From positions 120,864 through 184,863 of the forward strand of contig RCAB01000084.1 in NCBI GenBank assembly GCA_003640385.1: a stretch of DNA of 64,000 nt, given 5' to 3'. Positions 6,245 through 53,415 of this stretch are shown in pieces. How positions within the stretch are numbered: position 1 is the stretch's first letter; each line of letters begins with the position of its first letter. A program made the position numbers and the translations under genes. Under the pieces are notes generated by a model that was given only the letters and a program-made list of their open reading frames with translations, was not told where the DNA came from and did not search any database. The stretch comes from Setaria digitata (taxonomy: Eukaryota > Nematoda > Chromadorea > Rhabditida > Setariidae).

Positions 6245-6285
6245 GCTAGGTATCGAAGAAGTGTTTTCTTCCTGTAAACACGGTG

Positions 6286-9200
6286 ATGTCGGCCATGGAA
6301 GCAACATGTTCAAAGAAGCTTTGGCAGATTGTTTCTGTTTTGAGATGTCGCAATTCGAGTATCACCCATTTGCACGTGTATGGTACAACTGCTGGTCCAA
6401 AAGATGAAGTGATGCAAAAAGTTGTTGAAGAAGTAAAGGAGAATGATGAAGTTTGTTTTACACTTAAAATTGCAGAGCTTTTGGAAGAGCTTCGAAGGGG
6501 GAAGGCAGAAAAACTTTGACTTTATAGTGGATCTCTTGGCTGAACGTGCGTGTCTGTCTTAACCCGTGACAAAATTGAAAATAACTGAATTCGGTTGCCC
6601 GCTGATTCTTTTGGCAAGCAGTATTAAATAACAGAGTGATTTAAGGGAACTATTGTTTAGAGATGAAGGAAGTATTGTTATCCGAATGGAATATATCACG
6701 ACTAAAATTTATGTAATTGCAGAGTACTGAATAGAATGCTCAAATATAAACCTCATCAAGTGCCTGCTGTCATAGAGTTCAGTTTATCTAGAACTTCCAC
6801 ATTGTGTTAACTCTTCATTTTTACTTTACTAAATTATTTAGGTTATGGTGCTGCGCGTGAACTGTTATGTGAATCATAGATCTCACAAATTGTTTTGTCA
6901 AGGCCTGTATAATTTGTTGCCTCATTCAAAAGCTGGCAAAAAAGTCGAGAACTTAGAAAGCGTATTTGAAGAATGTAAAGCGGAATTGCAGTATGTGAAG
7001 TCGGTGGTAATGGTTGTCATTCTGAACAACGCGGAAATGTTGCTCAATTTCCCACCTAGCTTTTTGCAAGCATTCTTTTCCATTCCGAAGAAGGTAATAT
7101 TTATTTATAGCTTTAATTCGTCAGGCAAACAGACAATATTTTTGTTTGATTATATGAACTAAAGTTTGGAAAGAACACAGTTAGTTCGTAAGTTCTGAGA
7201 CTTGTTATGCGGAAAATTTTTGGTTCTTCTGATATTCATCTGCAATCTGGGCAAATGAGTTTTTCTTTTTCCATATTTTTTCCAAATAGATATTGTAGTT
7301 GTAAAATTTTCTTATATTTGTGGTTCTTCACTACAAATGCTTCCTGATGCACTTTTTATCTAGTATGGCGGCACCATAAAATTAGTGTCAGTTGCTCGAC
7401 TACCGTGGACACGGTTTGAAATCACCGAACATATATCTTCACCTGTGCAGTTCGCCTTTGAAGCTTTATCGAAAGGTATGCTTGACTTGTCGAATTCCTA
7501 AGTTATTTACAGATATTTTAGTTTGATTTATATTGTAGTGCAGAAGCTGCTCTTCTTTCCAGAAAGACTCCTGTTGCATTACTTATTCTGTTTTTGCATC
7601 GAATTTGTTGGGAACTTTTAAAAATCTTATTTTTGTATCGAATATGTCGGGAACTTTTGGAAAGAAAGCAATAAAATCTATTGATGAAGTAAAGGAGTTA
7701 TATAAAATGCGATTGAGAATTGTGTTGAAACAGAAGAGGTGAACAAATACTGACAGCTTTTATACGGTTTCATATAAAGTATTTTAGCTTGTTTATTCAG
7801 CTGGTTAAATTTTTTAGCTGGTGTACATTTGTTGTCAAATTCTTCCATTAAAGGTGAGGTTCAGGAGGCGCTGTCCACAAGGCTCAATTTTGACAACAAT
7901 TTTGTTCGGTGTATGCTCGATATGGTTTATTCTGTGTGTCGTGACCTAAACCAATTATCTTATATCGTATGTTTTGATTTTTCAAATAGAGTTTATTGAA
8001 AGGAAGTTTTCCTTTCTTTCATGCCATTATGGAAATCTGACATAATTCATTAAGCCCTCTGAGCCGACATGATATATATGTTAATTTTCGTAAGCTGTAG
8101 TAGATTCTAATTGATTTCGCATCTTCAGATTGAAAAATTATGGGATACTGGAACTGGTGATGGGAATTGGGCAAACAGTGCTACATCAAACAAGTTGAAG
8201 GCGTGCTATACAGCTAGGGGACAAAGTAGAACTGACGAATTGTTCTATCGCAATGAGAAAAGACCTGTGGTATTTTCATGACTTTACTGTTTTTGCAAAA
8301 GTAGATTTTGTACTGTATATTCTTTGACAAGATCTAGCGTAATTTCCAGCATCAAAATATATAAAATCTGAGCTGCCGCTGCTATAATGAGAAGACAAAT
8401 AAATGTTTAGTCTTGGTTTAAATTCCCGTTGCAGGAAGATGGACAGACATTTTGCTTGTCGACAAGTGCAAAGTATTTACTTATTGCAGCTTACTGTGCG
8501 AGTTACAATCCACCTAGTAGTGATCGGCGTTTTTTCACTAAGGTAGTTGTGTATTTATTCCTTGCAAAACTCCTTATTTTTTTTTTTTAAAAAGTTTGGA
8601 AGAAATGCTTGGCTCATCAGACGTGTGTCGAATCTCATTCATCATTCTCCTTCTTATAAAGGCCATTAATCACAATTTCAAGAAAGCTACTGACTGTGTT
8701 TCGTTCGATTCATCCATCTTTTCCATAATCATTCTTTTTACTGAAAAAAAAATAGTGATTAAGTAAACTTATTAAGAAATTAAGTACTTCTAGTATATGT
8801 TTACTGCCAGTATTTTTTTCCGTTCCAGTAACCCACATTATTTATTTGATCTTAGTCTTCGGGCTATATTGTTCTCAATTCTGTACTCTTGAGACGTATC
8901 TTCTACAAGCCTGGATCAAAGTTGGATTTCATGGATGAATATCAATAATTAATACATAATTGAAATTACATTCAGTGTTTTCCTTCAAATACTTCATATT
9001 TTTCTCCTAAGATGTTTCTTTCTCGTTTCGATCTCAATCGAAGAATTTCTAGTCTAGATGATGTTGATATGTGCGAAAAACAAATGGTTTCAATTTTTAT
9101 TGGGCGGATTTAAAAAGATAATTGCAGAACCACGGAAAACAACGCCGTCGTGCACCAACCACAAAGGGATCAAGAAACAACTTAGAATTAGCTCATGAGA

Positions 9201-22698: not shown

Positions 22699-25249
22699 AT
22701 GGAAAATACAATTATTAACTCCTCCAACGATAATTTTGTATTTTCCGTCGAAAAGACTGAACCTTACTCTATTCGTTGTGAAATTTGTTTTGAACCATTT
22801 CATATTAAAAAGCGACCACCAAAGTTATTACCTTGTGAGCATAATTTTTGCGAGCAGTGCATTTTCTCGCTTTGTTGCCATCAGCAGGTAACATTGGTGA
22901 TTTGTTTTTAATTTAGCAAACTATCAGTCTATTCAAGTCATTTCTTTTAAACTAATGTTAAACGTATTACAATGAAAATTAATTATTAACTCGACGTTCA
23001 TGATGTAAAATTTTAGTACTACTTGTTGGACTCGATTAACTGTCCCACATGTCGCACTGAATTAAACACTTCAGCAGCTCTTACTGCTAGCACCAATTAT
23101 GGTTTATGCCGTAAGTAGCCAATCATTAATTATTTAACAGTTTATACGGAAACTTTATTTCAGCAATTATGAACAAGCACAATTTCCATTTCAATTAATT
23201 ATGAGTAACTAGGAAGAAATTTTAACTATGTAATTATCACTGTAAGCAATTAAAGTATCATCTGTCTATCATTTTAAAAATTCTGGCCATTGTTTATCAA
23301 ATTATACTGATCACGCCATTAAAAACTTCGAACTTGTCACCACCAGAATTGTTGGAAGCAATGCAACATCAACAGATGAGAGCAACCAGTGATGCAAATG
23401 TCACTGTTATCCACGTCTCCGGCAGTAACTGTTCATCAAGAACCAGGTTAATTCGATTGCATTCCTGGCATCGGAATTCGAAAAAACCATCTTCCGGTTT
23501 GAAAAGGCGTCGACTGATGCAATGTGTTGACTGTTCTCGGAAACTGAACGAGAAGAAGTGTCAGAAGGAAGCTCGCTTCTGCGAAAAGTGTTTTAAATCC
23601 AAAAAATATGCCGATGACTGCTTGGTAATATTATTAATTCCGTAAGAAACAAAACTGGAATTTTCGCTACTGATAAATTCCCTTCAACTTTCCATTGCAT
23701 GCTGTAATGAAATTCCTGACCCACCTGCCTCTTTTACTTCACAGGTCATCATCACTTTCGCCACCCATTCTGATAAGATTGATTCGGTTTCTGCTCAAAC
23801 CGTAGCTCTCCCTTCTCTATTCACCCTCCAGGATTGCTATCCTAGCTTCCAAACCGACCTGGCCATCCTTAGTTAATTCCAGAATTAATTTAATTACTTT
23901 TTGTGAGATATTGTAGCGTGTCGTGTGTCTGGAGTGCTGCGTGAACCGGCATAACGGGCACAAATTAATAACTTTGAACGAGTTGGAATGTGAACATCAT
24001 AATCTTGTCAGAGATTTGCGCACGTTACAACAAAGCATTCAGGTTACCTCCAATTAAATTATTTAGATAATGTTAATAGATTGCAATAAAATTGATTTGA
24101 ATCATTTAGCATGAATATTATATTGTTCTAATGATTCGGAAATTTTGGATTGCAGAAGACATGTAGATGGATGGAAAGTAGTTTAAAGGTACTCAGTGAG
24201 AGGTCAACAATGCCATCAACTGATTATGATGTGTTGTGTAAGGCAAAACAGGTATATTTTGAGGAGTGTATTGCAAATGATAGACAGCAGCATTTGAGGA
24301 TGGGTGACTATTGCTATGAGTGTCCATTTTAGCTTTGAATTGCAGTATCGCATTTAATTGAAATTTGAAAATCTCTAAGAAGAAGCCTGATGGTGAAAGG
24401 TTTAAGTCTGAGCACAGGTTGTTTGCAGGATCTTCAGAATGAGTGCGAAGCCGACATGAGGTTTGCCTTCTCAGTTTTAGAAAACCACGGGACAACTCCT
24501 TTGCCACCTACAGCCCTGCGACGGATGAGACAACACCAGTATCATAACAATGCCAGGATGCACAAATTACTACATTTCATCGAGGTACTTCACCGAAATT
24601 CTCCAGAAGCAGCAGAAGTGCAAGTTATATCCAAGAGTGATTATTCATTCAGATATTTTTAGCTATTTATTCACTGTCGGAAATCATGAGAGACTTTTTA
24701 GAAGTGTAACCAGTCAGAGAGCGAATGCTACAATCGAAGCATTAAACTGAATACCTCAAGTTAGTTCACTTTAAAAGGTGGTATTCTTCATTTTCTGGCT
24801 CTTCAGACTTTAAGTGTGTGATGCTTAATTGTTCGGTAATGGCGTTTATTGGTTTGAAATCCGAGAGGAAAAGAAAAAAAGTAGTAAGAGTTGAAGCATT
24901 TCATTCATCTTTTGTGTGCGAAAACTAATCGACAACTGTTTATTCATATTTCTTTGTGCTCAGATAATACAAAATTAATTGTCTAGTCTAAAATGAGAAA
25001 TGCCTCGTGGAATTTGTCGAAGTTAATAAACGGAAATTTGCTGTCGGATAGAAAATTGATTACATTTCTACTCATGCTAACCGTTCCGAAGAATTAAGAC
25101 AGTTGCGGGACATTTGGTCCAAACAAGTCACTCTATCGTTTCCCAAAATCAAAATGAACCAGGCTAGGAAAGTGAATTTTTGTACGATGCCGAATTTCAG
25201 TGTCACTGTTTTCACTGGATCGCCAAATGCGCATCGCTGTTTGCAGTAG
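22699..25249 (+). CDS. RING-finger / B-box (TRIM-like) protein, probable E3 ubiquitin ligase
   Basis: Exons 22699-22887, 23017-23110, about 23347-23624, 23917-24042, 24156-24251, 24429-24584 and tentatively 25052-25249; 378 residues if all are right. Residues 27-75 form a complete C3HC4 RING: C27-x2-C30, C46-x-H48, C51-x2-C54, C72-x2-C75. A second Cys/His cluster follows (CVDC, C, CEKC, CLECC, HNGH), spaced like a B-box, then a helical region (LVRDLRTLQQSIQ onward) like a TRIM coiled coil. The family role is ubiquitin transfer through an E2; the substrate is unknown. The acceptor of exon 3 (ACCACCAG) is weak but is the one that keeps phase. The last exon overlaps, in another frame, the first exon of the next model, so the C-terminal end is uncertain: the two may be one gene. 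Confidence 0.78.
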
Positions 25250-26830
25250 CGCTTCGGATAGTCGTTCAGTTGCAGAGACAGTTAGAGCAGTGCTAACAAT
25301 AGCATTCGATAGTGCGTCATCACATCATGAAGACGGAAACAGAAACGGAAATGGAAAAGCAATAGTCGAGGAAGCGATAAAAGTTCTAAATAGGAAAACC
25401 TCGACAAAAGCCGTACGGCGCGCGGCTTTGTTGTGTTGCGCTAAACATTTACGGGAATCAATCGACGAGTATTTTACATTTTATTCGTTATTTAGAAATG
25501 TTCGGGGTCAGCTATTTGAAAAAAGAAGCCTAGATCAGTCATCAAAATCAAAGAATATTTGGCTTCAGCCATTTGAAAAATCCTTTTGTGACACCAATTA
25601 ATCTTCCAGAACCACCAGTAAGCAATCAGTGCTTCTTTACATCGATGCTTATTTACACATATTTTACCAACTGAATTTTCTGGTGACACGATTTCCATCT
25701 CATGAGGATATCCAAGACACAACCGTAGTAACACGATGGGACATTTGGAAACTTGTGCAAGTAGTATATAGCGATCTAATGAAATGTGCAGCTAAGGTTT
25801 ATTTTTGTCATAAATATCTTTAACTAAATAAATGATTGAGGCTATTAACAATTCTGGAAAAGAAAATAAAAGGCAAAAAGAGGTTGAGAGGAAAGTAAAT
25901 TTCGAAGAACTCATTCATTCCGACAACGAAATTAAACAATTTCACTGAAAATTCTTGCCAATATTACATAATTATGCCCGATGCAAAGTTAAGTTCCTTT
26001 GGTAACTAAAAAGTTTTTTTGGCAAGTAAGCGAAAGGGAAGCTAGGCAATAAAGACAAGCTAAAATAAGCTAACAAAAAGATAAATAAGCAGGTTGAAAT
26101 TGGTACAGCAATATTTTAATATATTTAAAGCTCAATTGAAGGTATTACGATTAGAGTTTTAATTTTAATTGTCTTCATTACGAGAAAAATAAGGTGAGAT
26201 TACAGCATTGGCATAGCGAAGAAAGTGAACGAGTAGACCTGGTAGATGATTTGGCTTTCTTGTGCCTTTTGTATTCGGATATTTGTGATGAAGCAACGAT
26301 CACCATTTGCATGATTGAAGCTGCTCGAGCCAGAGCTGCAGCAACAGCAGCAGCAGCAGCAACAGGAGCTATCTGCTTTTCTACAGCTAACGATACATCC
26401 AAGAAATTAGGCCAAGTTGAGGATTACGGAAGACTCATGATGAATATTAGACTTGACGTAGGTTGCTCGTTTTCCTTTCCATAATCAGTTTGTGCTAATT
26501 TGAATTTTGTATTTTTCGGCACGTAACAAACTTTAGTGCTTTTAATACCATCCAGTATTCAAGGTATTCAGTGATCTCTGTTCTTCTTATCCCATTTTAC
26601 TATATTCTTTTTGAATTTGCAACATGCAGTCATTTCATTTCACTTTTAACTACTTTAAAAATCTTCAGCTAATCGATGAGCATCTACTAGAATGTCGTCG
26701 AGTGCAGAAACTTCAGCAGTTACGTACATCCACTGTCAAAAGACCTCAGAAACGAATTCGTCAATCATCAGTGAAATGTCTATGCAGACTTCTTCTCACC
26801 TGTTTTGGCAGATGTTCACGGCATTCCTGA
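25201..26830 (+). CDS. Uncharacterised helical protein, separate gene or 3' half of the RING gene
   Basis: Not recognised. Exons 25201(ATG 25227)-25468, 25610-25796, 26206-26457 (or from 26194) and 26669-26830 join in phase to 280 residues. The opening exon follows a strong GAATTTCAG. The protein looks helical (SVAETVRAVLTIAF, VTRWDIWKLVQVVYSDLM, VDDLAFLCLLYSDICDEATI), then has an alanine-rich run ARARAAATAAAAATGA made by a GCA repeat at about 26333-26365, and ends basic and Cys-containing. No domain is evident. It overlaps the tentative last RING exon by 49 bases in a different frame. One explanation is that these exons are the true C-terminus of the RING protein and that a junction was misplaced; the other is a closely packed downstream gene. 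An AATAAA at 27096-27101 may be its poly(A) signal. Confidence 0.5.
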
Positions 26831-27471
26831 AGAAATGCACTTTCCCGTTCCTGCTTTCATCATTCTATAAATATTTAATTCGATTTGAAGTAGACGCTGT
26901 ATTTTACTTTTTTAACATTCTAGCTTTCAAAATTTACAACTAAATGATGAAAATTAAAAATGTGAAGCAACTACAAACATTGTCATCTATGTCTTGCAGA
27001 AGTTGTAACCCATATTACCGATACATCAGGAATGCCAATGACTAAGCAATGAATCTTTGAGGGGTTTATGAACTGACGTAGTTAAATGAAGAAACAATAA
27101 AATGCTTTAAATTACGATAACATTGCTCATTCCTCCATTGCGAATGGTTATCGATTGGCGTACTGTTGATCCAGATCAATCATTTGCTTGATTGTAAGAT
27201 TGACGAAAGGTCAATTTAGCTCTAGCAGTTTGAGAACTTGAAATAATGACTTTAGTTTGTGCGTATGTTTTTCTAACATCTGGAATCATTTGAAATGAGA
27301 GTAAATTATCATAAGTAGATTGCTCACAGTTAAGATAAGCGTTATTTTTCCACGCTTAAATCTACTTTTCTAGCATAGTACTCTTCACTACTGTCTGTCT
27401 TCTCAGTCCTTTGCTTTGGAACTGAATCTACACTAAATCTTATTTCAAAACATCTGAAATATAAATTGCAG
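26831..27471. other. Intergenic: 3' end of upstream gene and trans-splice site of Maelstrom
   Basis: Holds AATAAA at 27096-27101 about 270 bases after the stop, and ATAAATTGCAG ending at 27471, 41 bases before the Maelstrom start codon, a probable spliced-leader acceptor. No open frame of note. Confidence 0.45.
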
Positions 27472-27512
27472 AAAGTTCTTTTTTCGGCAACTGAAAAGGC
27501 TAACGAGAGAAA

Positions 27513-30500
27513 ATGCCAGTTGTTGCCCCCAATGGCTTCTGTTTGTTTGCACAGGAACTACGAAACAAAATAACAGGGCATAGACATTATTGTCGAGACG
27601 ATTTAATTTCACCTTATTTGGTCCGTATAGTGACACCACTGTGGGAACGCCTTACAAGTGATGAGAAGAAAGTTGGAACCTGAACTATTCGGCGGATTAA
27701 ATAACTTTTCGACTCTTCAGCGTGTCTCCGTCAGACACCAGACACATAAAAAGGATTATTTATGAAATGAATTTTTTTAAAACCCGAGTAATGAGTTGAA
27801 ATTGATAGTAAAGTTAAAAGAGAGTGCTAAAATCAAAGATGGCCCTTTTTGTCTGAGATTACGGATTTTTGGAAACCATAGCCACCACCTATTTGTGTTT
27901 AGGGGATCCCACAATAAGCAATTCTTAGATTTCATAACCTTTATTAGCATATGTTAAATGAGCTCACTCAATAGCTCCTAGCCAGGTCTGGAAGGATCGG
28001 GCAAAAATGAAGCGTCACATTGAAGAATATTTCGCCTTAATGCACCAACCGAGAATGATAGCAAAACGGAAGAAACGGGAGCATGCATTAGTGAAGCAAG
28101 TTCTGCAATTTTCTTTCTAGCCCCTTTTTCCTTAAAACTGTTTGGAATAGAAGATAACTGTTTGTTATTATTTTACAGTGCAACAGTCGCAGCAAGTAGT
28201 AACAGGGGAAAAAGTGAGAAACTTGATGAATTTGATGAGAATGATTATCCAGAAGACTTAATGATTGGTATACCGCTGAATCAAAAAGATTACGATTCGG
28301 AAGGCGAGTTATATTGAAAGAAACAAATAGAGTGCTGGAAAGAGGATCTTCTTTTATCTTACCTTCTACTAAATCAATTTGCTTGAAGTTAGCAACAGTA
28401 GAGATGTGGATTCATCCAACTACTGTTGTAACTATAATTGAAAATTTAAAATCCGAAACACTACAGAAAATGGTATCAGTCAGTTGAGTTACAAGGAAAA
28501 ATACGAAAAAGACAAACAACGAGTACTCGCATTCCTTCGAACACTTAAAGGACTGGATGAGATCCGAGCAAGTTTTGAATCTTCAAACTGCTCTGTTAGA
28601 TGAGTACATCAGAAAGGCTGGACTACTGAGAGTGACAGTCAATCGCATCGATATTTGAAGAGAATTTCAGAGAGCTCGATTTTTGTTTATTTCGATACAA
28701 ACATATGGTAATGTTGACGGTATATGCATTCCTGCCGAGATCGCTATTTGTGAATTTAATCTAAAGCATGGCATTATCGATAAGGTATTATTTCCTAAGC
28801 ATCAACAATATACACTAAGAAATAATTAAGCGTCACTGATTATAGTACTTGGTGATGCTAAAACCTGAACAGTAGTAATGGAACGGTGACGAAAGAGTGG
28901 CACCATGGTCATGATTAAGATTGAAAAAAAAAAGTAGTGAAATTCCGATTCAACGATCCATTTTGCTCTTTTTACGTCGACGTCAAACTCAAATGGAGAT
29001 CAAGAATTGAAACTCACTACATGTCGTTAGACGAGTTTACATAACAATACCAATAATAATTCATTGGCTAAAGCAAATATAGATATACAAAAATACTGAC
29101 AACAAATTACTGTCAAGGGGCATTTGTAGTACACGTCGCTTATTGGACCGTGGCGTTTGAATAATGAAATACAAAGGCGAAGAGCGGAATTTCACGCTAA
29201 CGAGACTCATCAGATCCACTTAGACACGTTTGGTGGAAGAATATCTAAAATTCCGACGCAAAATTCGGTCATTTTACTTGGGTTTCGTAGAAGTACTCAA
29301 AGCATGAAATGTGTTAATGCTCAGATGTTTCGTAATTGAACTAAAAAATAAAATTCAGTTATAGAGTAACAAACTTATCTTTATCAAGAACGCTTTGGAG
29401 ATGGAAAAGTTATGTACATCGTTCAATTCGATTTTTTTATTCTTTTGTTTGGGAATATTTCACTAGTTGATGTGCAAATCTTGAATGTGATAATTACACT
29501 GAAATTGTCTAGTCTACAGAACTAAGCTATGTTTGGTCTATAGACTCTAGTTGAATCTTATTTTGAAGCATTACAGTGTTTGAGGGAAATTTTGGGTCGC
29601 TGCGAGCCAGCCATCGCGCAGCACCAAGGCGTATCCGTCGGTTTGTACCGTGATGGAATTGCTGAATTCGATAATGATGTGGTGAGTCGTAAGTTTGAAA
29701 TGCACATATCAGTCGAATAGTCAGCATCTCTGGAAACAATAAAATTTCTTCCTAGGAGCAACCAGCTTCGACATTTGCATGTAGCAGCGATGCTCACGAC
29801 CGAAGGCGACATCAAGTCGCTAATGATGGAAATGGTGCCGGATCCGTTGGTAGAATATGTAAGTTGCTTCAGTAGCATTATGCGATTGCATTAATTTAGA
29901 ACATTAAACTGAAGTGTTAATTTATTGGACTGAAATTTCAAAATGTTTAAAATGAATTAAAACTCGCGATTAAACGAGGTCTATCTCATAGCAGAGATGC
30001 CTTGAGTTCAGTATCTTGAAAAGCAAAAAAAAAATCATTCACCTCCTTTCAGACACAACATATCACAACAAAGATAAACGAGGGAAATTCATCAGAGGTG
30101 TGTTGCTTAAAAGTTATTTAATTACTTAATTTCTGAAACAGAAGAATACTCTCGAGATTCGTTTCTGACTGCTACCGTTAAAAGTAAAGTAGTACAATAT
30201 TCTAGCTGTATGCTCAATTCACTGGAGCTTTTTTTGAGGCAAGAATGGAGAACTTTGATAGAAATGAAAATGGAGGCTAGGAAGATTATTCGAAAATAAG
30301 GGCAAGAGATTAGAGTTCATCAGCCGTAAAGTCTTCGTATGAGAAATAGATGTGCTCTATTGGAGATGTTAATAACTTCAGTATAACTTCAGTGCTTTCT
30401 ACCTTGTGCCTAACCTAGCTAAGATCAATTTAAAAAGAGACATGATCTGTGAAGCTTACGTGTAACTATTGCAAGCAACTGCTAATGGAATCTTACCTTT

Positions 30501-31806
30501 GAAGGTTACACAAATAGTTATTACATATCCAAACGTCCACAGCCAACACAACCAATTTTTGTGGGTGACAAAGAAGGACGCCGTTGGTTAGTATGTCTAA
30601 ATCACGAGTACGACAAAATACGAGCATCTTTGGAGTACCTCAAACAAGCGCAGGGCCTCTGCTATGACGGTAATTAATTAGCACCTTAGAGCAGGCTGGT
30701 AAGTTCTCACAATTCTTGCTTATTTGGGCAGATTATTTCATTTTTTTCTCTCATAAATAGTTTGAAAATAAGTTCAGGAAATGTATGCAAAAGTTTGCAC
30801 TTGACTGAGGCATTGGCCTTTCCAGCAATTTCATCTAGTTCAAAAAATATGGTACTCAGAAAAGAATTAGTTCAGCTTTTCAAATTTTTAAACTTCTTCA
30901 ACTTTATAAAAATTTTGTCATTCGCGCCCAATAGGATATTGAGAGGCTTTAGTTTTAATTATGGGAAAAGACCAAACTCGAATTATATAAAACGAAGCTT
31001 ATAATTGAAATATGAAGCAAGTTTCGCATTGCATGAAATAAAAAAGTTTATGACCAAAAAAACTCTTCCAGTTGTTTTGAAAACTTCAATTTTTGTACAT
31101 TATTCCACAAAATTTCATTACCGTTTGCTTGAAAAATAAGGGGGACGATGAAGACATGTATGTATGTATAAAGATTTTGAGATTCTTTAAGTCACTTTCA
31201 AAAAAACTTTGGTAACTTTCAGTAAATTAAAAAAAAAAGCAAATAGATTGTTTCCATGTAATAAATTCTTTATTGAACAAAATAATGGAATCATTAAACT
31301 TTGAGTACTGATATTTAATCCGAATATGATACATGCTTCACCGCATCCTTTTCAGGCTTTCCAACAACGGAGGATCGCTTTTGGTACGCTGATGCGGTGG
31401 TTGACGCATTGGCGGAGTATGTCAACGGTACGCCTAATTTGGAATACAAGTTATGGATGGATATTTTTGGGAAAAGGCAACCATTTGAGGTGCTGTAGAA
31501 CTCTAGGGGCACGAATGACACAGCAGATCAAATAACAATTTAATTTAAATCTCAAGCTGAAACTCAAGCTTGAATCTGTTCTAAGAACAAAAAAGGTATC
31601 ACCTGCAAAGTTATCTGTCTGAAAGTTACTACCTGAAGGTAAATGCTTTGCAGTTCAACACTCCCTGGGAACGTCGAGCCAACGTATTTTGTCGAATGCA
31701 TGGAGTGACGCGAAACTGTTGCTGCGCTTCGGCAACTGCAATTCGAAGCTGTTTTGCGATATTCTTTGCACTTCGTGAACTTCTAGGCTTAACCTTGGAT
31801 GATTAA
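27513..31806 (+). CDS. MAEL: Maelstrom homologue (HMG box + MAEL domain)
   Basis: Maelstrom acts in piRNA-guided transposon silencing in animal germ cells, downstream of nuclear Piwi in flies. Eleven exons fit phase: 27513-27671, 27986-28095, 28179-28267, 28467-28594, 28671-28784, 29130-29267, 29544-29681, 29756-29858, 30505-30669, 31356-31489, 31654-31806; 476 residues (human 434, fly 462). Residues 1-75 form an HMG box (PNGFCLFAQELRNKI, then PLWERLTSDEKK and VWKDRAKMKRH). An acidic linker follows. From residue ~163 the MAEL domain shows its hallmark PAEIAICEFNLKHGIIDKY, then HANETHQIHL, PIFVGDKEGRRW, and a final Cys/His exon FCRMHGVTRNCCC, matching the conserved E/H/C/H pattern of the MAEL RNase H-like fold. 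Intron 2 starts GCAAGT rather than GT. Exon 4 is the least certain, since another frame is also open there. MAEL identity is secure from the exon 5-6 motif. Confidence 0.87.
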
Positions 31807-33442: not shown

Positions 33443-36400
33443 ATGCTGGCTGTGCTTCATTTGTTTGTTCCGCTGCTCCCCTGCATAGTGAATGATGTAT
33501 TTGTACTGGGGTCAACGGATCTGAAGGCAGATCTCATTTATGTGCAGGCTGTTTGGAGACATGGTGACAGGGCACCACATCAACTGCCTTATCCGAATGA
33601 CAGAAACAATGCAAGTACCTGGCCAAGAGGATGGTCTCAGCTAACAAATGTTTGCTTCAAGTCTTAGCACTCCTGAAATTAGCAAAAAGATTTATAGCGA
33701 AATCGATATCAACTTAAGTGTGAAGAAATTAAAAAGAAACAAAGTTTAGTTCAGCAGGTCAATATGTCATTTTCATTTCAAACAGCAAATGAGTTGCTTC
33801 TGAAATGATGATTGCGAATCTTTTCTTATTCAGCTAGAAGAAGTAAATTCGGAGTTTTCTGAGCTGATTCGGCTGTTTAGAAGTTTGAACCATTTTACTA
33901 ACAGATAAACTGTTTTCTCAATCTACGATTTTTGCTGAAGTCATTCAGTAATACACAGAATATACCATCTTGTTGAACGTTTCTGTGAAGCAATTAATAA
34001 TTTCATATCTTTTCGACTACTAGCTTCTAAAATGCGGTAAAAATCTGCTTTTTTTTTTATTCCAAAAATAATAGATCTTTGGGATTCTCTTCTAAGCTGA
34101 CAATGAGTTTGTCATTATTTTAAGATTTTAAACATAATTACTTGAATTACTTGTAGCTTTGCTAACTGATTCCTTGTTGTAGGTAGGAATGAAGCAGCTT
34201 TATGAATTGGGTCGTTTCTTCCGGAAACGGTACGATGGCTATATTGCTGAGTTCAATCCAGCTGAAGTGATTTTTTACCATTGTTTTGCTTCATTCCGTT
34301 AATTGTTAATACATTTATTTTCACAGAGTTTATTTAAACAGTTAATCAACAAAGAAAAGATGATTATAAATTACGATTCAGAAAAATCAGCTTGTCATCG
34401 AGATTTATTACTTTCGTTCATTTCAATCAAATGAAATAATTATTTCAGGTACGAATTATTGCATCGAGATCGGACAGAGCAATTGTCAGTGCTCAAGCAA
34501 TGTTACGTGGATTCTTTCCGGCTAAGAATACTCTAATGCAATGGTTGAAGGACGAGCAATGGCAACCGATTCCGTTTCACATTGAGACCATCGAAAGGAA
34601 CAAAGCTGTCAGTGGTTTTCATTCCGGTTTTCATTCCATTTACCTGGCTGGACTTTCAGCGTAATTACTCTCTCGACTATTGCTGAAGTCACTTCACTTC
34701 ATTTACCATTGTCCTTTCCAGCTCCTTCATCCCACCTTACACCGTTGCCTGCGATATGACCAACTTGTGGAGAATGGAGCAACAACAATTGACGATGCCA
34801 TGATGCACAGGTATGCCAATGTAGTCCATTTCCTAGCCAATGCTACTGGGATCGGTGAAGCATTGACATTCGACCGGATCGCAGCGCTGATTGATATCCA
34901 GCGTGAGGTGTGTGTTACCTTTTCTGGGATTAGGACTAATGTACATAGTTAAGCAAAAACTTCATTTTGGAAAGATCCAAATTTTAAAAGTTATTCAATT
35001 TTAAATCTTTTGCTTCTTTCGAAGCAACCTGAACCAAATTTTTCATTTCCGGTCATCCAATTCTTGTCTTTCAAGAAAGAGCTAATATTTTGGTCGAAAT
35101 TTCAGATTTTTCATCAGTTTCCACAGCCGGCGTGGGTTTACCGAAAGTGGCCACAATATCAGAATAGAAGTACAATAGATATTATTATAGAATTCAAACG
35201 TCTTATCCAAATTTCAAAGTATAATACGCCCGAAAAAGCCCGGCTTAAGGGTGGCTTGCTGCTTAGTGAGATACTACATCGGTTTCAAAATGTTTCTGAA
35301 GGAATTGGAGCAGAAGCGAGTAAAATGCTTCTTTATTCTGCAGTAAATTTCTTCGATATTTTCAGAGTTTTCTTATTCAATTACTTTAAACAAAATTAGA
35401 AGAAAACTTTTACTTTTAAAAGAAAAAAAAACCAATGCTTGTCTGGCTTAATTAATATTCATCGGTGAATGAAACGTTTGTGGAAGAATTTCTCGAAAAT
35501 GCATTTTTCCCTCATCATAATTCTTATCACTAATTACATATAATAAAAATCAAAAAGTTTTGAGCTTAATTCTAGTGTTGTATCTTTTTGTAGCATGATG
35601 CGACTATATTAGCACTGCAAAATGCACTGAATGTAAGCAATGGCTTGCTAGTGCCATATTCAGCTTGTCTAATTATGGAGTTGTATCGAACAGAAGAGAA
35701 TGAAACGATTGTGAAAGTTAGTTATACACTATTATTTCAGTCATTTAAATTTGGAATTCAGAAGATTTTCCGACCAACAAATCTTTCAAGTCGAGTGTCT
35801 CCGTTATTCTTATCAAATTTCTGTCTATCAGTTGCAAATTTACTTTTTTTATTTTTCTCTTTGGTTATTTATGTATTGTATTTGTCAGACTTTCAATTGC
35901 CTCACTCATTTTAAGCAAAATACTTCCTAGAAAACTTTTATGATTTTGAACAGACAAAAAATGTTGAGGATATGTTCAATTAAATCTAATTGATTTAGTT
36001 GTTGCTAAGGTGAGGAAAGTTCAAGAATCAATGATTCAAAAAAAAGGAAAAGTCCTATTAACAGTCGTATGTATTTATATAAAGCGGGAATCACTAGTAG
36101 AAGTATAAAGATTGGTATTAGACAAAGTAATTTCTTGAACTGATAAGTCCAAAGCATACAGGTGAGGATCCTCGTGCAGTAAATAAAAGTCAGGGCTTGT
36201 CTACTTTGCCGCGCATATATTAACCGTATTTAGTTTTGTTTTGTTTTATGAGAAAGCAAATATCTTGGATCTAGCTTGGTTATCCAAAAGAGATGAACAA
36301 TATGAAAGTAAGATTGTTAAATTCAGTCTGCTTTTTTAGCTGTTGAGACAGAATCGTTTAATTCATTCAGAGAGATTGGTAATTTGATAAGCTTTGAACT

Positions 36401-37027
36401 GTTGAGTTATGCAATTAAATGTTCGAAGGAGCTCTTTTACGACGATAATAATTACACTACAGATTTTATACAAAAATGAGACAGAAAATGCAAATGCCTA
36501 CGAACTGTTCGTGCCGGGATGTTCAACACCATGCACACTGGATCATCTGGTCAGGTTATGTGCTGCTACTACGTTGGATACGCTGGATGATCTACGTAAG
36601 GTAATTCGACTTCCGGTTAAGATTGGCAAACTAAGAACCAAATATCATGGACCTCAGATTATGGCTTCGGTTCATCGCCAACCGACATAATCAAACTCAT
36701 GGAAAAGAACTGAGCTGACGAGAAAACTTTTCAAAACCTTTAAGACTCAATAGCATTTTTAACTATGTCCCTTTAAATATCAGAACCCAAATAAAAGTAG
36801 AATATTCTCAAGCTGATAAGTGGGCCATAATTATTCTGTCAAAAATTTGGCGTATCCATTTTTTTTTTCAGGCTTGTGACGAAAAAGAGTTTCCAGAACA
36901 TAATCACATTAGTAACAGCGTCAACAACAACACTGTCAGTAGTAATGCCATTGAACACAGTATGAGAGTGACGTTTCCGATTTTGTTTGGTCTCGTGTTG
37001 ATGTATGTATTATCGATAAACTACTGA
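33443..37027 (+). CDS. Histidine acid phosphatase, membrane anchored
   Basis: Branch-2 histidine phosphatase hydrolysing phosphomonoesters at acid pH, probably at the cell surface or in a secretory or lysosomal compartment. Exons 33443-33649, 34183-34266, 34449-34607, 34722-34907, 35106-35342, 35594-35716, 36463-36600, 36872-37027; 429 residues. A signal peptide covers residues 1-~22. The catalytic RHGDRAP lies at 39-45 with nucleophile His40; the proton-donor HD pair is His292-Asp293 (HDATI). Family landmarks WPRGWSQLTNVGMKQLYELGR, SRSDRAIVSAQAML, RLKGGLLLSEIL and ELFVPGCSTPCTLDHL are present, the last with the usual disulfide Cys pair. A hydrophobic segment at ~411-427 ends the chain, predicting a type I membrane protein rather than a soluble one. 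ATG 33422 is in frame 21 bases upstream; I prefer 33443 because an acceptor-like TTTAG lies between them. It is like the C. elegans PHO/ACP family. Confidence 0.95.
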
Positions 37028-39990: not shown

Positions 39991-41256
39991 ATGGACAAGA
40001 AAATCCACGGTGTGCCGATCAGAGAATATTTCACAGATCTGGTATCCAAGAGGGTCGATGTCGAGCCAAACAATCCAGCATTCCGATGCTTCAATGATAA
40101 ATTTCACATCTATGTTCGTTTTTTTTATCAGTTCTAGATCTCCAACTTGGTATTAGGTTTATATATCGACAAGAGATATTCAAGTCGTAGATGTGGAATC
40201 AAAAGCTAAGTTATCGTACTTAATTTGCGTTGTTAGAAATACTCGAAATAATATTCCATCGGGGATGTCTACTAGAGAAGGGATGAGATTGCAGAGTTTT
40301 ATTAATCAGGCAGATATCGTATTATTTGTATGCGACACGATACAAATCTCTTGTTTACAGCCTCTAGCAAAAGTCATGTTCATGCTTAGTATGAGTTGTT
40401 GGGTTATAACGCTTGGAGTTCTATTTCCATGGAGCATACTGATTGTTTGGATAGCAGTATTGTATTTTCTATTAACAGCTTACGCTCTCCGACAAAAACA
40501 AGCAGCATGCCTTTGGCCCGCTATTATCCATTCGGTAATTTGAAATCAAATAATTTTAGCACTTCATTATAGTACTAGAGTAAAATGAAATATGCCTTCA
40601 AGAATCTAATTAAGTTTTGCTTTTTTCTTTCTAATATGGATGGCAGAATACTCCCACCACTTTCTAGGCCTTAGTAATATTAATGTGGTTATCTGGAACA
40701 ATTGTCATATTCACGACAGCGTTATTCAGCACCCAGACATTTCTGGATACTTTTGGACAAGGTATATTTCAACAAATTTCGTACAACCTTGCCTATCCAG
40801 TAAAAGGGAAAAAACTTCACCTTCACTGTTTTCATACTTTTAGTAATAAGAGAACTGTTTTGTTGTTACAGCATTCTTCCATCTCGTGGATCCATCAGCA
40901 CGTTTATCCGTCTTTTCTGGTTTTGTAATATTCCACTGCGATCCCATTAAAATCAATAGCTGACATTTCCAGAAAAAAAGATAGAACAATTGAAGTACTT
41001 AACTACCTTAATACCTCAATTTTGCTATCTCAAATTTTCAGGTCATCAACAACAATTCATTGTACGATTTTTGATAGTTTTACTGATCAAGAGCGTAATA
41101 ATACTCATTGGTCTCTATCTCATCTATCAGTTTTTCGTATTTAACCAATGTCGTAAATATTTCGATCATATACGGAATGCAGACTTACCAAGAGCTTCCC
41201 AGGAAGAAGGAACTGAATTAGAAGTGATCCAGGACAAACCACGATTTAATGATTAA
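39991..41256 (+). CDS. Four-transmembrane (tetraspan) nematode membrane protein
   Basis: Exons 39991-40113, 40361-40534, 40668-40761, 40872-40919 and 41042-41256 join in phase to 217 residues. The N-terminal 41 residues are polar and end FRCFNDKFHIY. Four hydrophobic segments follow at about 45-65 (VMFMLSMSCWVITLGVLF), 66-84 (ILIVWIAVLYFLLTAYAL), 100-122 (ALVILMWLSGTIVIFTTALF) and ~150-175 (FIVRFLIVLLIKSVIILIGLYLI). The cytosolic tail is acidic (SQEEGTELEVIQDKP). The layout, a Cys-containing short N-terminus before four helices, is common among uncharacterised small nematode membrane proteins; I cannot name a family. An ATATTCCAG eight bases before the ATG fits trans-splicing. AATAAA at 41261-41266 follows the stop at once. 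Function unknown. Confidence 0.75.
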
Positions 41257-46371: not shown

Positions 46372-49300
46372 CTATCGAGTTTTTCAGCGCTGTTATGGCT
46401 TCATTAAGATGGTTCGATTCTGACAACAACGAAGCAACCTGAAAATTCCATTTCAAGAACAGATTTCAGTACTTTGTAATTCTTGGAAATCTTTTTCTTA
46501 TTCTTATGTGCTTATCTATCCCAAATAAAAATAAGGAAAGAAAAAAAAAAAAGCAAAAACGGAATAAAATTCCCATTAATAATGGATAACATCGAGTTGC
46601 GGATAAGTAAAGAGCTGAAACAAACTATATTACAATGCTTGATAACCTCATCGATTGTTTTATAACCTAAAATAAAAAGGCTACTTTACCTTTTCTGTGT
46701 TATTATTACGTATTCCAAGGGGTACTTTGTTGTAAGCTGGACTAGAGATTGTTTCCTCTAATTTTTGCAATTGAACCATTAGTTTTTCACGCTTGTCCAT
46801 TAATTTCGTAATTTCCTTTGAAACATTGATCATACCCTAAAACATTACACTAGCCAATAAGTTGGTATAACCGTAAATGTGAAGTTAACTCTGACGGATG
46901 CATTAGTAATAAGGCAATCGGAGAAAGAAAAGAAAAAACATTTCCTCTGAACATCCTAAAAAAAAACCAAACCTCGAGCAAAAGGAAAATCTTGCACGTC
47001 GCCGAAACAGTAATTTGTGCACAGCCCGATGGCACCTGATGCATTTTATAATTTGTTAGTAGGAAAACCTGAAAAATATATACTGTAGGTGTAAATAAGT
47101 TCATATAATGTCTTATTCATTTAAAGATTTTTTTAAATATTAAACAACTGATCGGATCTTTTAACAGAGATGAAAATGAAATGAATAAAATTATAAAAAG
47201 TGAATAAGATGTGAAAAAAGCTAGCCTTGGATGAGGAAGTTAAAGTAGTTATTAACGGTATAAGATCTTCTACTTCTTTTATTTCTGAGATGTTCTCGAA
47301 GATAACATAAACTGAAACAAATAACAAATCAGTTTCAAATTTGCCATAAAACCATAAATTAAACGCAAAAGCGCCCATTTAACTTACTGAGATAAAACTC
47401 ACGCTCAGTCTTAACTTTAGCTGTTAGTCCATAATCAGAACGAAGAGAACGAACTGTTTTCACGATACACATCGCCTGCATCATCCGATTTTCCAAAATT
47501 TCATCTCGAAATGGATACTAGAAAAGCAAGTTCAAATGTGAAAAATTATTGTTTACTCAAGATCAGTTTCGAATTTAGAAAAGGAACTAAATCAGAAACC
47601 TGTTCTGATTCTGGATAAGACACAACGCAGATGCTTTCTGGCTGCTCTATCGATACTTTCCGTGGTAATCGCTGCCAAAGTTCTTCAGATATGAAAGGCA
47701 TGAATGGTGACAGCAACCGGAGACCCGTTTCTACACATTCAAAGAGCACTTTTCGTGTAGCCTCGACACTTTTGGAATCTGCTGAATATTTAAGTAAACT
47801 TAGTTTCACGAAGAAATTGAATGATAAAAACAAGTGATCCTATTGATGAACTGACAAAAAAAGAAATTTTCCATAGAGCTCATTTTAAATATTATAAATT
47901 ATTTAAAGAAAACGCTAAAAAAAAAAAACTGACCGTCAACAAATACTTTTTTGCATCCTTCAATATATATGTCACAAAAATCATACTGCCAAAAATTATA
48001 TAAAGCGGTTGTAACATGACTAAAGCGATAATTAGACATTCCACTATTGGCTGCTTCAACAACATACGAAAGTCGAGATAAAATCCAACGATCCAATGCA
48101 CCACTTCTTTCCGGTAACTGAAAAGAACAATATTTTCTGTTGTCATGCAAGTCAAAAATGACTGCAAATACAAAAAAGCTGCATACAACCTATGAGGACT
48201 CAGTATTTAATATAATAGTTCTCATAGTATAAAATCTTTCTTTAGAAGAAACCAACAGTGAATTTATCTGAAGGTGTAAAACTATTGCCAAGCTGCATCA
48301 TTGTGAACCTCGATGCTTGCCATATTTTATTGCAGAAGAATCTGTATCCTTGGACACGAAGCACATCAAGATTGATATCCCGGCTCTGACTGGTATAACT
48401 AATCAATGCAAATCGCAATGCATCAGTGCCACATTCTGGAATACCATTCGGAAAATCACGTGCTTGACCTTCTTTCGCTATTTTCAGTTCTCTGTAACAA
48501 TGTTTAGATTCTACTTTCAAAACAATACGATGGCATAAATTATGCATGTGTATACACAGATTTTTTAGGAAAGACACATTCTACGATTGCTCTTAACTTA
48601 CTTTCAACCAATGCTTACTTTGCATCAAGATTTCCAGATTCTAACATTTTGTTAAGTCGCACCAATGATACACCATGTATGACGTCTAACGGATCGATTA
48701 CATTACCTAACGACTTACTCATTTTACGTCCATGAGCATCCCGGATCATAGCATGCAAATAAACCTAAAAAGAAAAAATAGAAAGATTTGTATCATAAAA
48801 GGAATTCCCCTAGTCATTATGAAATCTCACTATTTTTTTATGTCAAAAATGAAAAAGATTCATCTACAACCATGTTACCATAATACTTATTTTTTCTTTT
48901 TGGATAATCAAAATTGATAGACTAACTTCCCGAAATGGCAATCTTCCTGTAAGCTCTTGTGACATGAACACCATCCGTGCAACCCAGAAAAAAAGTATGT
49001 CATGTCCAGTTTCTAAAAGTGTAGTAGGGAAAAAATTATCCAAATCAGCACTTTTTTCGGGCCATCCGAAAATCTCAAATGGCCACATTGCGGAAGAAAA
49101 CCAGGTGTCCAAAACGTCTTCATCTGCAAAAATTATTTATAATTTATAATACAACTGTCAATTTATTCGACAACAACAGTGGCAATTAATACTGAAAAAA
49201 GATAACAGTAAATCTATCAGGAAGTGACTAAAGAAAATACGAATTCATTAACATATTTGGCAAATATTCAAATGTATGAACAACTAAGGTAAAATTACCT

Positions 49301-52300
49301 CTTTTCACTGAGATTTTCTCTTCCGATATGCCAAACTTTCGAGCAGCTTTTCTCAGTGCTTCGGCTTCATCCTGTGCACACACCCAGTAATCGTTGTCAT
49401 CTGAACTATCAAGAGGAACTTCGGCATCAAGGATAGTGACAAAATAAGCAGGTATTCGATGACCCCACCACAGCTGTCGTGAAATACACCAGTCTCTGAA
49501 AATTGCCAAACATATTTCGTAGTTTAGAGCCAAAATTAAAGATGAAAGAATGCATGAAAATTCAAAGTAAATTTCTTATTTTTTTTGGTACCACGCATTG
49601 TGACAAAAAGATTGCCGTACCTAATATTTTCTAGCCACTTTCTCCATGTTGCAACGTGAAAATCTGGTATGATTTTCAGATGACCTTTCTCTACAGCCTC
49701 AATTGCTCTCTGCGCCATTTGATCACATTTTACATACCATTGTGATTTTAGCATTGGTTCAATAACATCTTTAGAACGACTGAAAACTTTTCGGAAATGA
49801 GAGAAATGAAATTTGATACAGCTCATAATTTCGTCACTGCTGGTTACCTGCTAAAAATTTACCTGCATAAAGGAACAACCATTGGATTATCAGTTTTTCC
49901 TCTGAAAAGACCCTTCTTTTTCAAGGCCTCTAAAACAGCATCTCTTGCTTCGAATCGCTTCATATTCTAAAACAGTAAAAACTAGGGAGGAATATCAGGC
50001 ATGAAAATTTCGCAAACATAATAGCAAAACGAATTTGCTTTCTTTATTTAAATCATAATGTTTCTTGATTTAATTAAATAATATTCCTATTCTGAAATTC
50101 CAATTTCCATCCAATCTAACAAGTAAAAATAAGATGAAGGAACACCTTGAATTCACCACACCGTTCGCTCATTTTACCATCATCAGTAAGACAGTTGATG
50201 AATTCTAGATTATGACGGATTCCTACTTCATAGTCGTTATGATCATGAGCAGGAGTTATCTTCACCACCCCTGAACAAAATATTTCCATTTCAATTTCTA
50301 TTTCGGTCATTGATATACGAAATCAATAAAGTGAATCCATGTAAAATATTTCGCATTAAAGCAATTTCTGACTTGATTTCTTGCTTATTACGCTTTCATG
50401 TAGACATCTAAATAACAAACATTCCGTGAAAAAGATCTGAAAAATAAGGAAACGGAGGGTGAAAAGTGGAATCTTAAATCAAAAAAGATATATTTAGAAT
50501 ATGATATTTATTGATATCCAATAATTTCATAATATCACCTTTCTAAAGTGTAACTTCAATGACTCAGTGTTTCACTTTTTATTTTTACTCGATTAGACGA
50601 GCTTTATTATAGTGACTTAGTTCTTACTTCTATAACAAATTATTATTTAATACTTATTTAAATACAGGAAAGTTAATAAATAGTATACCAAACCAGAAAT
50701 TCGAAAATTACCTGTTCCAAATTCCATATCAACGAACGAATCTGCTATTATGGGAAGTTTTCTATTAAGAAACGGATGTATACAATTCTTAAAAAAAAAA
50801 AAAAAATTTTTTTTCGCAGTATTACTGAGTAATTAGAATTATTTTCAATTATTTCTTTAGATTCTTAAAACCCTTTAAATTTCAGTATGCGAAACACAGG
50901 AGAGAAACTTTAAGCAGAGGGCTTTTAACACATTAAGATCTGTACATTTAATCACAGTAAAAAAATAAAAGAACCTTGCCAATAAGATGCTTGTATCGTT
51001 CATCTTCTGGATGCACTGCAACAGCAGTGTCACCTAGCATTGTTTCAATTCGTGTCGTTGCTACTACGACTTCTTCATCTAAAGCAAATAATTTGGAAAA
51101 AAGTCCACTACCTTGCTATGTACAAAAAAAAAAAAAAATAAAATAAAAAAAAAAAAGAAAAATCCTATTCTTAAATGACAAATGCCGGCCAAGATTTTAA
51201 AAAAATATTGGCACTATGCTTGCGTGGTAGTACCTGAATTTTCGACTAGATAAGCAAAAGATATCAGCACACCAAATTCAACTTTTTTCATGTATCCGGG
51301 GATCGACAACAATGTACTTCCACTTAACTCTACCTTATCAACCTAAACAGGTGAGTGATATCATACAATGATGCGAAAAAAAAAAAGAATTGGAAGAAAT
51401 CATATATTTAGCTGTTGGGAAAGCTTGCCCCCTTTTATGATGTTATGAAATAGCAAGAGAAAAAATATTTGTAAATGGAGTTTCGACAGAAAAGTACGTT
51501 ACAATCGTAACATAATATGAAATGTGAACTGTTAGCAATACTTATGCACAGAGCAACAAAACTCCGCTAAGACGATGATTCGAAGAGCTCTGAAAAATAC
51601 CTCTATATCCGAAATAGCAGATCTCAAAACGCAGCACCAATTTACCAGTCGATTGCTTCGGTATATAATACCCTTTTCATGCATTACAATAAATGCATGT
51701 ACTACAGCGCGCGTAATTTTTGGATCCATCATAAAACAAGCTCGATCCCAATCAACTCCTGCGCCCATTTTTCGTAACTGGTCATAAATTATTTCACCTT
51801 TTCTGTAATGTTACATAATGATAGAGTAAAGAAATACGAAATATGTCAAATTTCAATAGAACTGTTAGATGAGCTTCAGCAAAAATTTAAAATGCATGTG
51901 GAACATTTTAAATAATATTAAGAATTGTTGTGGAACATTTACTACACATTATTAAAATTGAAATGTCAAGTAACAAAAAAGACAATTTAAAATTTTGCTT
52001 CCATTTTTCCATTTCTTTCTAGATAACGATTTCACATCCAATTCTTGATTTCAAATTTTTTTAATTGCATTGAAAAGGGAAAACAACTTACTCATCCTTC
52101 CATTTCCACACTTCTTCAACAAACTTCTCCCGACCCAGATCATGTCTTGTTAAATTTAGTTCGCGTTTCAAGCGTTTTTCAACTACAACCTGAGTAGCAA
52201 TTCCAGCATGATCACATCCTGGATTGAACAAAACCGTTTTGCCTTTCATTCGGTGCCTGAAAAGAAACGAATAGCGTGAAGAAGAAAACTGTTCAAAAAA

Positions 52301-53415
52301 CTAATTATGGAACTGCTTGTATATTTAAAAATTATTGCTTCCATCAAATTAGCGAAGATTGAAGGCATTAATCAAAAAAAAAAAAAAAAAGAGAAATACG
52401 GTGGTAACGCAGAAAGCCCAAGGCGACAGAGTGCGTATAGAAACGATATAAATATTAAGAAATTTGAAATCTCGAATACTACACAAAAATTACAAACTTA
52501 TACAAAAAAATAAAGGAATAAATTCCTGAAAATCACCATCTACAGATAGCATCTTGTACGGAAGTAGCCAAAGCATGTCCCAAATGTAACGTTCCGGTGA
52601 CATTCGGTGGCGGAATAACCACTGTGAAAATACCTTTCGGATTCGGCTTTCTGCAGGTAAATCTTTTTCAAAATGAAATTTGTGATTGCAAAGAGAAAGA
52701 AATCTCCAACGAAAAGAGCTCGAGAAATAAATAAAATTTCAAACAAAACTTAACATTGGTAGTATTCTAGTCCATTAAAAGCTTCACTAAAAAAGGGCAA
52801 AAAGAATTTCCCGTGCAGCTAAATTAAGGAGATGATCTGTTACATGATGGTTATTGGATGTTTTTTGTTTTAATTGAAAATATATAACGCATCTGATTCA
52901 CATCGTTAGTTTCCTTCAATTGAAATTAAATCAACTACAGACTTCAGTAGATGGTGACAGGCTAACCTTAAATCGCGCTTATATTCAGGTCGAAAAAACC
53001 CAACTTGCTGCCACCATTCATACCAAGCTGCTTCTACGTATTTTGGACTGTAAGCATTTGGCAAATCGACAACGGTGTTCTTCTTCTCTCCTGGTTTTGT
53101 ATTGGCACTGTATTCGAAAATTTCTTTCTTCATTTCTGTCGTCTGCAAACAATATGAAGAATAGACAGTAAGTTCAAAATTTTAACTAGAAAAGACTCAG
53201 AACCTTACTAACCCTGTTAGATATAAAAGTGCTATAATAATATCAAACTATACCAGTTGCTTAGCTTGATGTGTTCTCATCCCTGCCATCTTCTTCTCCT
53301 TTTCACGGAATTTCGCTAACTTTGCTGCTTTCGCTGCCTCCTTTTTCAGCTCTTTCGCTGATTTTGGCTTTTCCGACCCCAAATGAGCACTGACTTCAGC
53401 AGTCTCAGTTCCCAT
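46372..53415 (-). CDS. VARS1: Valyl-tRNA synthetase, cytosolic
   Basis: Class Ia synthetase charging tRNA-Val. Twenty-two exons, 5' to 3': 53415-53254, 53142-52967, 52650-52537, 52256-52092, 51802-51601, 51342-51234, 51078-50975, 50787-50712, 50270-50146, 49966-49863, 49779-49621, 49495-49299, 49123-48927, 48764-48619, 48491-48257, 48117-47934, 47781-47600, 47517-47388, 47311-47226, 47068-46973, 46837-46690, 46437-46372; about 1053 residues. A Lys/Glu-rich N-terminal extension precedes the catalytic core; there is no GST-like domain as in vertebrates. HLGH (HIGH) at 135-138, [17 protein letters not shown], editing-domain [18 protein letters not shown] and [44 protein letters not shown] at 644-648, and a C-terminal coiled coil. 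Exon 21 is one base too long and runs into a stop (see findings). Intron 19 begins GCTAGC. A TTTACAG ends 17 bases before the ATG. Confidence 0.98.
46690..46837 (-). other. VARS exon 21 with apparent +1 frameshift
   Basis: Flanking exons end and begin in phase 0, so this exon should be a multiple of three, but it is 148 bases. Read from its 5' side the frame gives [12 protein letters not shown] then AAT GGA CAA GCG TGA. One base further on, from about 46798 down, the expected coiled-coil sequence [20 protein letters not shown] resumes to the donor. The extra base lies in the AATTAAATGG run near 46799-46803. Confidence 0.7.

Follow-up and report, generated by a model that had tools for sequence, protein, structure and literature searches.

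A Maelstrom gene of the filarial nematode Setaria digitata and its possible role in a genome that yielded no PIWI

Introduction

Maelstrom acts in RNA silencing in the germline and is usually described as a factor of the PIWI-interacting RNA (piRNA) pathway. Here we analyze a Maelstrom gene of the nematode Setaria digitata, located at positions 27513-31806 on the plus strand of a 64-kb window, i.e., the whole 64,000-nucleotide stretch of contig RCAB01000084.1 that was studied. A preliminary description of this DNA had proposed an eleven-exon gene encoding an HMG box and a MAEL domain in a filarial-type worm, and had suggested either another role for the protein or a relic small-RNA route.

One of the closest known systems is RDE-10 of C. 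elegans (Q9N3S2). RDE-10 is a Maelstrom-domain protein (PF13017, with the ECHC zinc motif) (PMC11335349), and secondary small interfering RNAs (siRNAs) require it in this worm (PMC11335349, PMC7255803). A change in its MAEL domain abolishes silencing of bli-1 and not of unc-22, i.e., of one of the two genes tested (PMC11335349). It is known from a complex with RDE-11, and two Argonautes, RDE-1 and ERGO-1, act upstream of it; the sources consulted give no data that place it downstream of PRG-1. The preliminary description had C. elegans without a clear orthologue; a relative does exist in this worm, namely the Maelstrom-domain protein RDE-10 (PMC11335349, PMC7255803). From insects and the wider family, the EHHCHC motif of Maelstrom is known, with its ECHC subset binding zinc (PMC2628886; Bombyx MAEL paper), and Bombyx MAEL is described as binding single-stranded RNA while being inactive as a nuclease.

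PRG-1 is reported as absent outside clade V, clade III worms with an assembled genome included, and 22G RNAs against transposons are described from Brugia malayi (PMC4323106); the main text of that source mentions neither Maelstrom nor RDE-10. Brugia malayi was already named in the legend of a 2008 Maelstrom tree (PMC2628886). Beyond this entry we found no published discussion of Maelstrom in PIWI-less nematodes, in a search that lay mostly outside subscription journals.

The gene and its protein

Eleven phase-consistent exons, the number given in the preliminary description, run from an ATG at 27513 to a TAA ending at 31806; several borders of a draft model were corrected by means of orthologues. 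Splice borders were set by reading phase together with protein alignment to the orthologues. The corrected coding sequence of 1407 bases is free of internal stops and yields a product of 468 residues. When this protein was compared with the 75.6 Mb assembly, 11 matches were obtained, every one of them within the gene. A profile search of the assembly with Pfam PF13017 returned no match, which is a false negative, as the protein search recovers all 11 exons; scoring in the profile search goes exon by exon, and the gene was missed.

Searched against Pfam, the corrected spliced product gave a clear match to the MAEL domain PF13017 (79.6 bits, E 3.5e-22, cut-off 22), and the same domain was matched in all 21 relatives scanned out of 31 found in the databases. 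The EHHCHC residues are complete (E188, H225, H230, C431, H434 and C442). We identify the locus as S. digitata Maelstrom, a MAEL-domain gene. While the MAEL part of the proposed architecture is thereby confirmed, the HMG box is only a diverged candidate that scores below the Pfam cut-off (13.2 vs 25.4 bits), and none of the 21 relatives reaches E 0.001. A profile built from 13 nematode sequences retrieved HMG-box proteins in 18 of 21 PDB rows, although only at E 0.05-1; these alignments begin at position 5 or 6 and extend to 59-116, and three helices are predicted in the region (predicted local distance difference test, pLDDT, 34-63). We accept the N-terminal region as a putative diverged HMG box, correctly placed and not proven.

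The predicted structure of the deposited S. digitata entry is poor (pLDDT 44.5), and the structure search was therefore run with the model of the A. viteae orthologue alone. This model has a DnaQ/RNase-H-like fold; Drosophila and Bombyx Maelstrom (4ybg, 5af0, 9nhc) share 13-17% identity over the structural match. The DEDD nuclease site, which metazoan Maelstrom has lost, is most likely gone here too: Ser173 and Gln175 occupy the two of its four positions that were read from the alignment.

Relatives in other nematodes

A taxonomy lookup places Setaria digitata within Filarioidea, in keeping with its earlier characterization as a filarial-type worm. The corrected protein is identical to the S. 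digitata entry A0A915Q5V8 at 303 of 303 aligned residues. This entry (343 residues) lacks the first 165 residues of the corrected model, perhaps because of GC splice donors, which may have kept the 5' half out of the deposited protein, and it has an extra 17-residue stretch that is missing from most orthologues. The corrected gene model thus mends a truncated database entry. The filarial Maelstrom proteins, namely Brugia malayi Bm1785, the 'Protein maelstrom' of Dirofilaria immitis and A0A915Q5V8, represent the same gene, and identity of the corrected protein to six spirurid sequences amounts to 73-84%.

Three homology searches, the first of which used a 460-residue draft as query (as did the initial Pfam and PDB searches), returned 31 different proteins, of which 30 carry a precomputed MAEL domain; an organism name is given for 30 of the 31, and all 30 are nematode. 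Relatives occur in filariae, Thelazia, Gongylonema, ascarids, Necator, Ancylostoma, Haemonchus and Trichostrongylus, and also in Angiostrongylus, Dictyocaulus, Parelaphostrongylus, Pristionchus, Diploscapter, Aphelenchoides and Steinernema, taxa which we take to cover clades III, IV and V. Pristionchus is placed in clade V and has PIWI, and Steinernema is placed in clade IV. The latter clade is reported to lack PIWI (PMC4323106). Maelstrom in nematodes is a known and widespread family, not an isolated relic. As the search is word-based, it reaches only relatives with short words in common and is silent on absence elsewhere. Caenorhabditis is not among the 31 proteins, although RDE-10 is known to carry a MAEL domain; the omission thus comes from the restricted reach of such a search and does not mean that the gene is absent, and loss of Maelstrom in Caenorhabditis, considered at one point, was dropped on the same ground.

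Two predicted Maelstrom proteins were found in Steinernema hermaphroditum (P0025 and P0026), one with a NAP domain and the other with a SET domain; their Maelstrom parts are near-identical, which points to a duplication or to gene-model fusions.

Argonaute, RNA-dependent RNA polymerase and GTSF1-like loci in the genome

A search of the assembly for the Piwi domain gave 32 matches on seven contigs, taken as seven Argonaute loci; as the genome profile search scores single exons, this and the other locus counts are lower bounds. For typing, the exon pieces of each locus were joined and compared with sequences of solved structures. The best AGO-type and PIWI-type scores were 513 and 130 bits for C71, 318 and 92 for C597, 218 and 94 for C334, 132 and 64 for C146, 89 and 54 for C13, 71 and 54 for C433, and 29 and 23 for C169, a short and weak case whose top row (29.7 bits) is a chain labelled only 'Uncharacterized protein'. 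A PIWI-clade Argonaute was not found: none of the seven loci is nearer to PIWI than to AGO, for C169 weakly so. The proposal of a genome without canonical PIWI is borne out to this extent, and the Argonaute result agrees with PMC4323106, where PRG-1 is reported missing outside clade V. Drosophila and Bombyx Maelstrom differ in this respect, in that they partner PIWI proteins. Such a partnership describes how Maelstrom operates in other animals and is no sequence character by which the family is defined. Matches to RNA-dependent RNA polymerase (RdRP) were found on three contigs of the assembly, i.e., at three RdRP loci.

A locus on contig C76 (39487-39722; L049, L051) carries two tandem CHHC fingers with 18.3 and 16.7 bits (PF05253, cut-off 21.1), which reach 25.1 bits when the pair is joined. 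Its best PDB matches are GTSF1 of 9nhb (E 3e-4) and Gametocyte-specific factor 1 of 6x46 (E 0.003), followed by U11-48K (E 0.08). We regard it as a GTSF1-like candidate. The finger model PF05253 is not specific, since two control genomes, bacterial or archaeal, also gave matches with it, one of them above cut-off. A further CHHC finger, on contig C70 (30 bits, above cut-off), was rejected as GTSF1, as TRM13 methyltransferase matches adjoin it; the gene is therefore most likely a tRNA methyltransferase.

Proposed role and alternatives

As no PIWI-clade Argonaute was found, a Maelstrom role other than in the PIWI pathway is needed. We consider it fairly probable that S. digitata Maelstrom binds RNA and serves as a cofactor of siRNAs that RdRPs make, and that it was kept because this role needs no PIWI. 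Worms of clade III retain the RdRP siRNA pathway. Zinc-stabilised, RNase-H-like and with its DEDD nuclease site gone, the MAEL domain would bind single-stranded RNA; the protein would, like RDE-10, assist RdRPs as a cofactor in producing secondary siRNAs; and this siRNA job, being independent of PIWI, would have allowed Maelstrom to be retained after PIWI loss. Binding of RNA is most likely on the precedent of Bombyx MAEL, and an siRNA role most likely on that of RDE-10, which the S. digitata protein resembles in its MAEL domain, ECHC zinc motif and nematode host, as judged by published description. We further infer a germline setting. Of the two options offered in the preliminary description, the role outside PIWI is retained and the relic small-RNA route is not the best reading, because many nematodes carry Maelstrom and RDE-10 is needed for siRNAs.

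Several observations weigh against an RNA-binding siRNA cofactor. RDE-10 was not recovered in any of the three word-based homology searches. An insect MAEL was reported as a single-stranded RNA endonuclease in vitro (Matsumoto 2015, cited in PMC11335349), against the finding for Bombyx MAEL, and a function in RNA binding only is disputed for MAEL. Moreover, structures of insect Maelstrom show it complexed with Siwi, a PIWI protein (9nhc, 9nhd and 9nhs, by their titles), and PIWI is the family's best-known partner.

An unlikely alternative, which we nevertheless rank ahead of the others, holds that filarial Maelstrom is nuclear and restrains transposon transcription, guided by nuclear worm-specific Argonautes in place of Piwi. 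In flies, co-transcriptional silencing involves recruitment of Maelstrom to the targets of Piwi (review PMC9539491), the HMG-like region is retained, and C13, C433 and C169, with the lowest best AGO-type scores (88.9, 71.4 and 29.7 bits), would fit worm-specific Argonautes; RDE-10, the sole MAEL protein of nematodes whose role is known, is linked to the amplification of siRNAs instead. A role outside small RNA, e.g., in germline mRNA storage, appears less probable still. It would be allowed by the single-stranded RNA binding and nuclease inactivity of Bombyx MAEL and would suit a worm whose genome yielded no PIWI, but the published Maelstrom functions, in the parts consulted, all concern RNA silencing, and Argonaute and RdRP loci are present in the assembly.

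That S. digitata has a PIWI pathway which was missed seems very improbable. The assembly may be incomplete, and an exon-by-exon search, which overlooked Maelstrom itself by its family profile, gives lower bounds; against this, the search recovered seven Argonaute loci, none of them PIWI-like, and PRG-1 is reported absent from clade III assemblies (PMC4323106). The truncated deposited protein and three introns apparently with GC donors could suggest that the exons are joined wrongly or that the gene is a relic in decay and no longer works, which we hold to be scarcely credible in view of a frame without internal stop, the level of identity to the six spirurid sequences and a fully kept zinc motif.

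A broader and more tentative reading, which we put somewhat below even likelihood, is that a nematode ancestor moved a PIWI cofactor module (Maelstrom and GTSF1) over to the RdRP pathway, the loss of PIWI in several lineages coming later. We entertain it because Maelstrom, the GTSF1-like locus and three RdRP loci are kept, and proteins of both kinds serve RdRP siRNAs in C. elegans, where GTSF-1 works for an RdRP complex rather than for piRNAs (review PMC9539491). In solved insect complexes, Maelstrom and GTSF1 occur together with Siwi (PDB titles). Such a hand-over, if true, would help explain how PIWI could be lost repeatedly.

The puzzle of Maelstrom without PIWI is largely explained by the RDE-10 role, and the family was already known. 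The occurrence of Maelstrom in a nematode whose genome yielded no PIWI, taken together with RDE-10, suggests that the basic activity of Maelstrom is separable from PIWI, and PIWI-less worms allow this activity to be tested apart from PIWI.

Exon structure

Exon 1 (27513-27671) holds the start codon and the first portion of the HMG-like region, by orthologue alignment. A putative 5' leader precedes it at 27472-27512, probable from inspection of the sequence alone, and a possible trans-splice acceptor, TTGCAG, lies at 27466-27471. The HMG-like region ends in exon 2 (27986-28095), which is followed by a GC donor (gcaagt). Exon 3 (28179-28303) encodes an acidic linker and is again followed by a GC donor (gcgagt), with DYDSEE spanning the junction in four orthologues, and exon 4 (28467-28567) encodes a linker helix, followed by a third GC donor (gcaagt). 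The MAEL domain begins in exon 5 (28671-28784), where Glu188 of the zinc motif is encoded at 28737-28739, and continues through exon 6 (29130-29267), which carries His225 and His230 of EHHCHC. By orthologue alignment, exons 7 (29577-29681; CLREILGRCEP), 9 (30505-30669) and 10 (31356-31489) belong to the MAEL domain and exon 8 (29756-29858) to a variable loop. Exon 11 (31654-31806) supplies Cys431, His434 and Cys442 of the zinc motif and the stop codon TAA.

The ten introns comprise seven of GT-AG and three of GC-AG type (donors at 28096, 28304 and 28568). GT donors close to 28096 and 28304 put the frame out of phase, and the in-phase GT alternative to 28568, at 28595, would add 9 residues that are absent from orthologues. 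The joining of 28671-28784 to 29130-29267, on which the preliminary description had staked its model, holds: the protein is continuous there in 16 of 17 aligned relatives, the remaining one (P0008) being gapped. The 460-residue draft was dropped since orthologues contradicted its borders of exons 3, 4, 7, 8 and 9; those of exon 7 (29544-29681), exon 8 (29766-29858) and exon 9 (30543-30669) were superseded in this way.

Other features of the window

Rfam and tRNA scans of the 64-kb window gave no matches, and the open frames at 6250-6516 (+), 24369-24659 (+), 25176-25598 (+), 40157-40540 (+) and 59662-59943 (-) had no Pfam match at E 0.01. A possible histidine acid phosphatase lies at ~33700-36690 (+): of the two frames tested, one matches His_Phos_2 with a score below cut-off (18 vs 23.6 bits), and an RHGDRAP stretch is also seen. 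A class I tRNA synthetase gene, probably of the valyl type, has exons at ~47546-53181 (-), with PF00133 in both frames tested. An open frame at 55406-55846 (-) encodes a chromodomain (Pfam Chromo, 54 bits) and appears HP1-like by eye.
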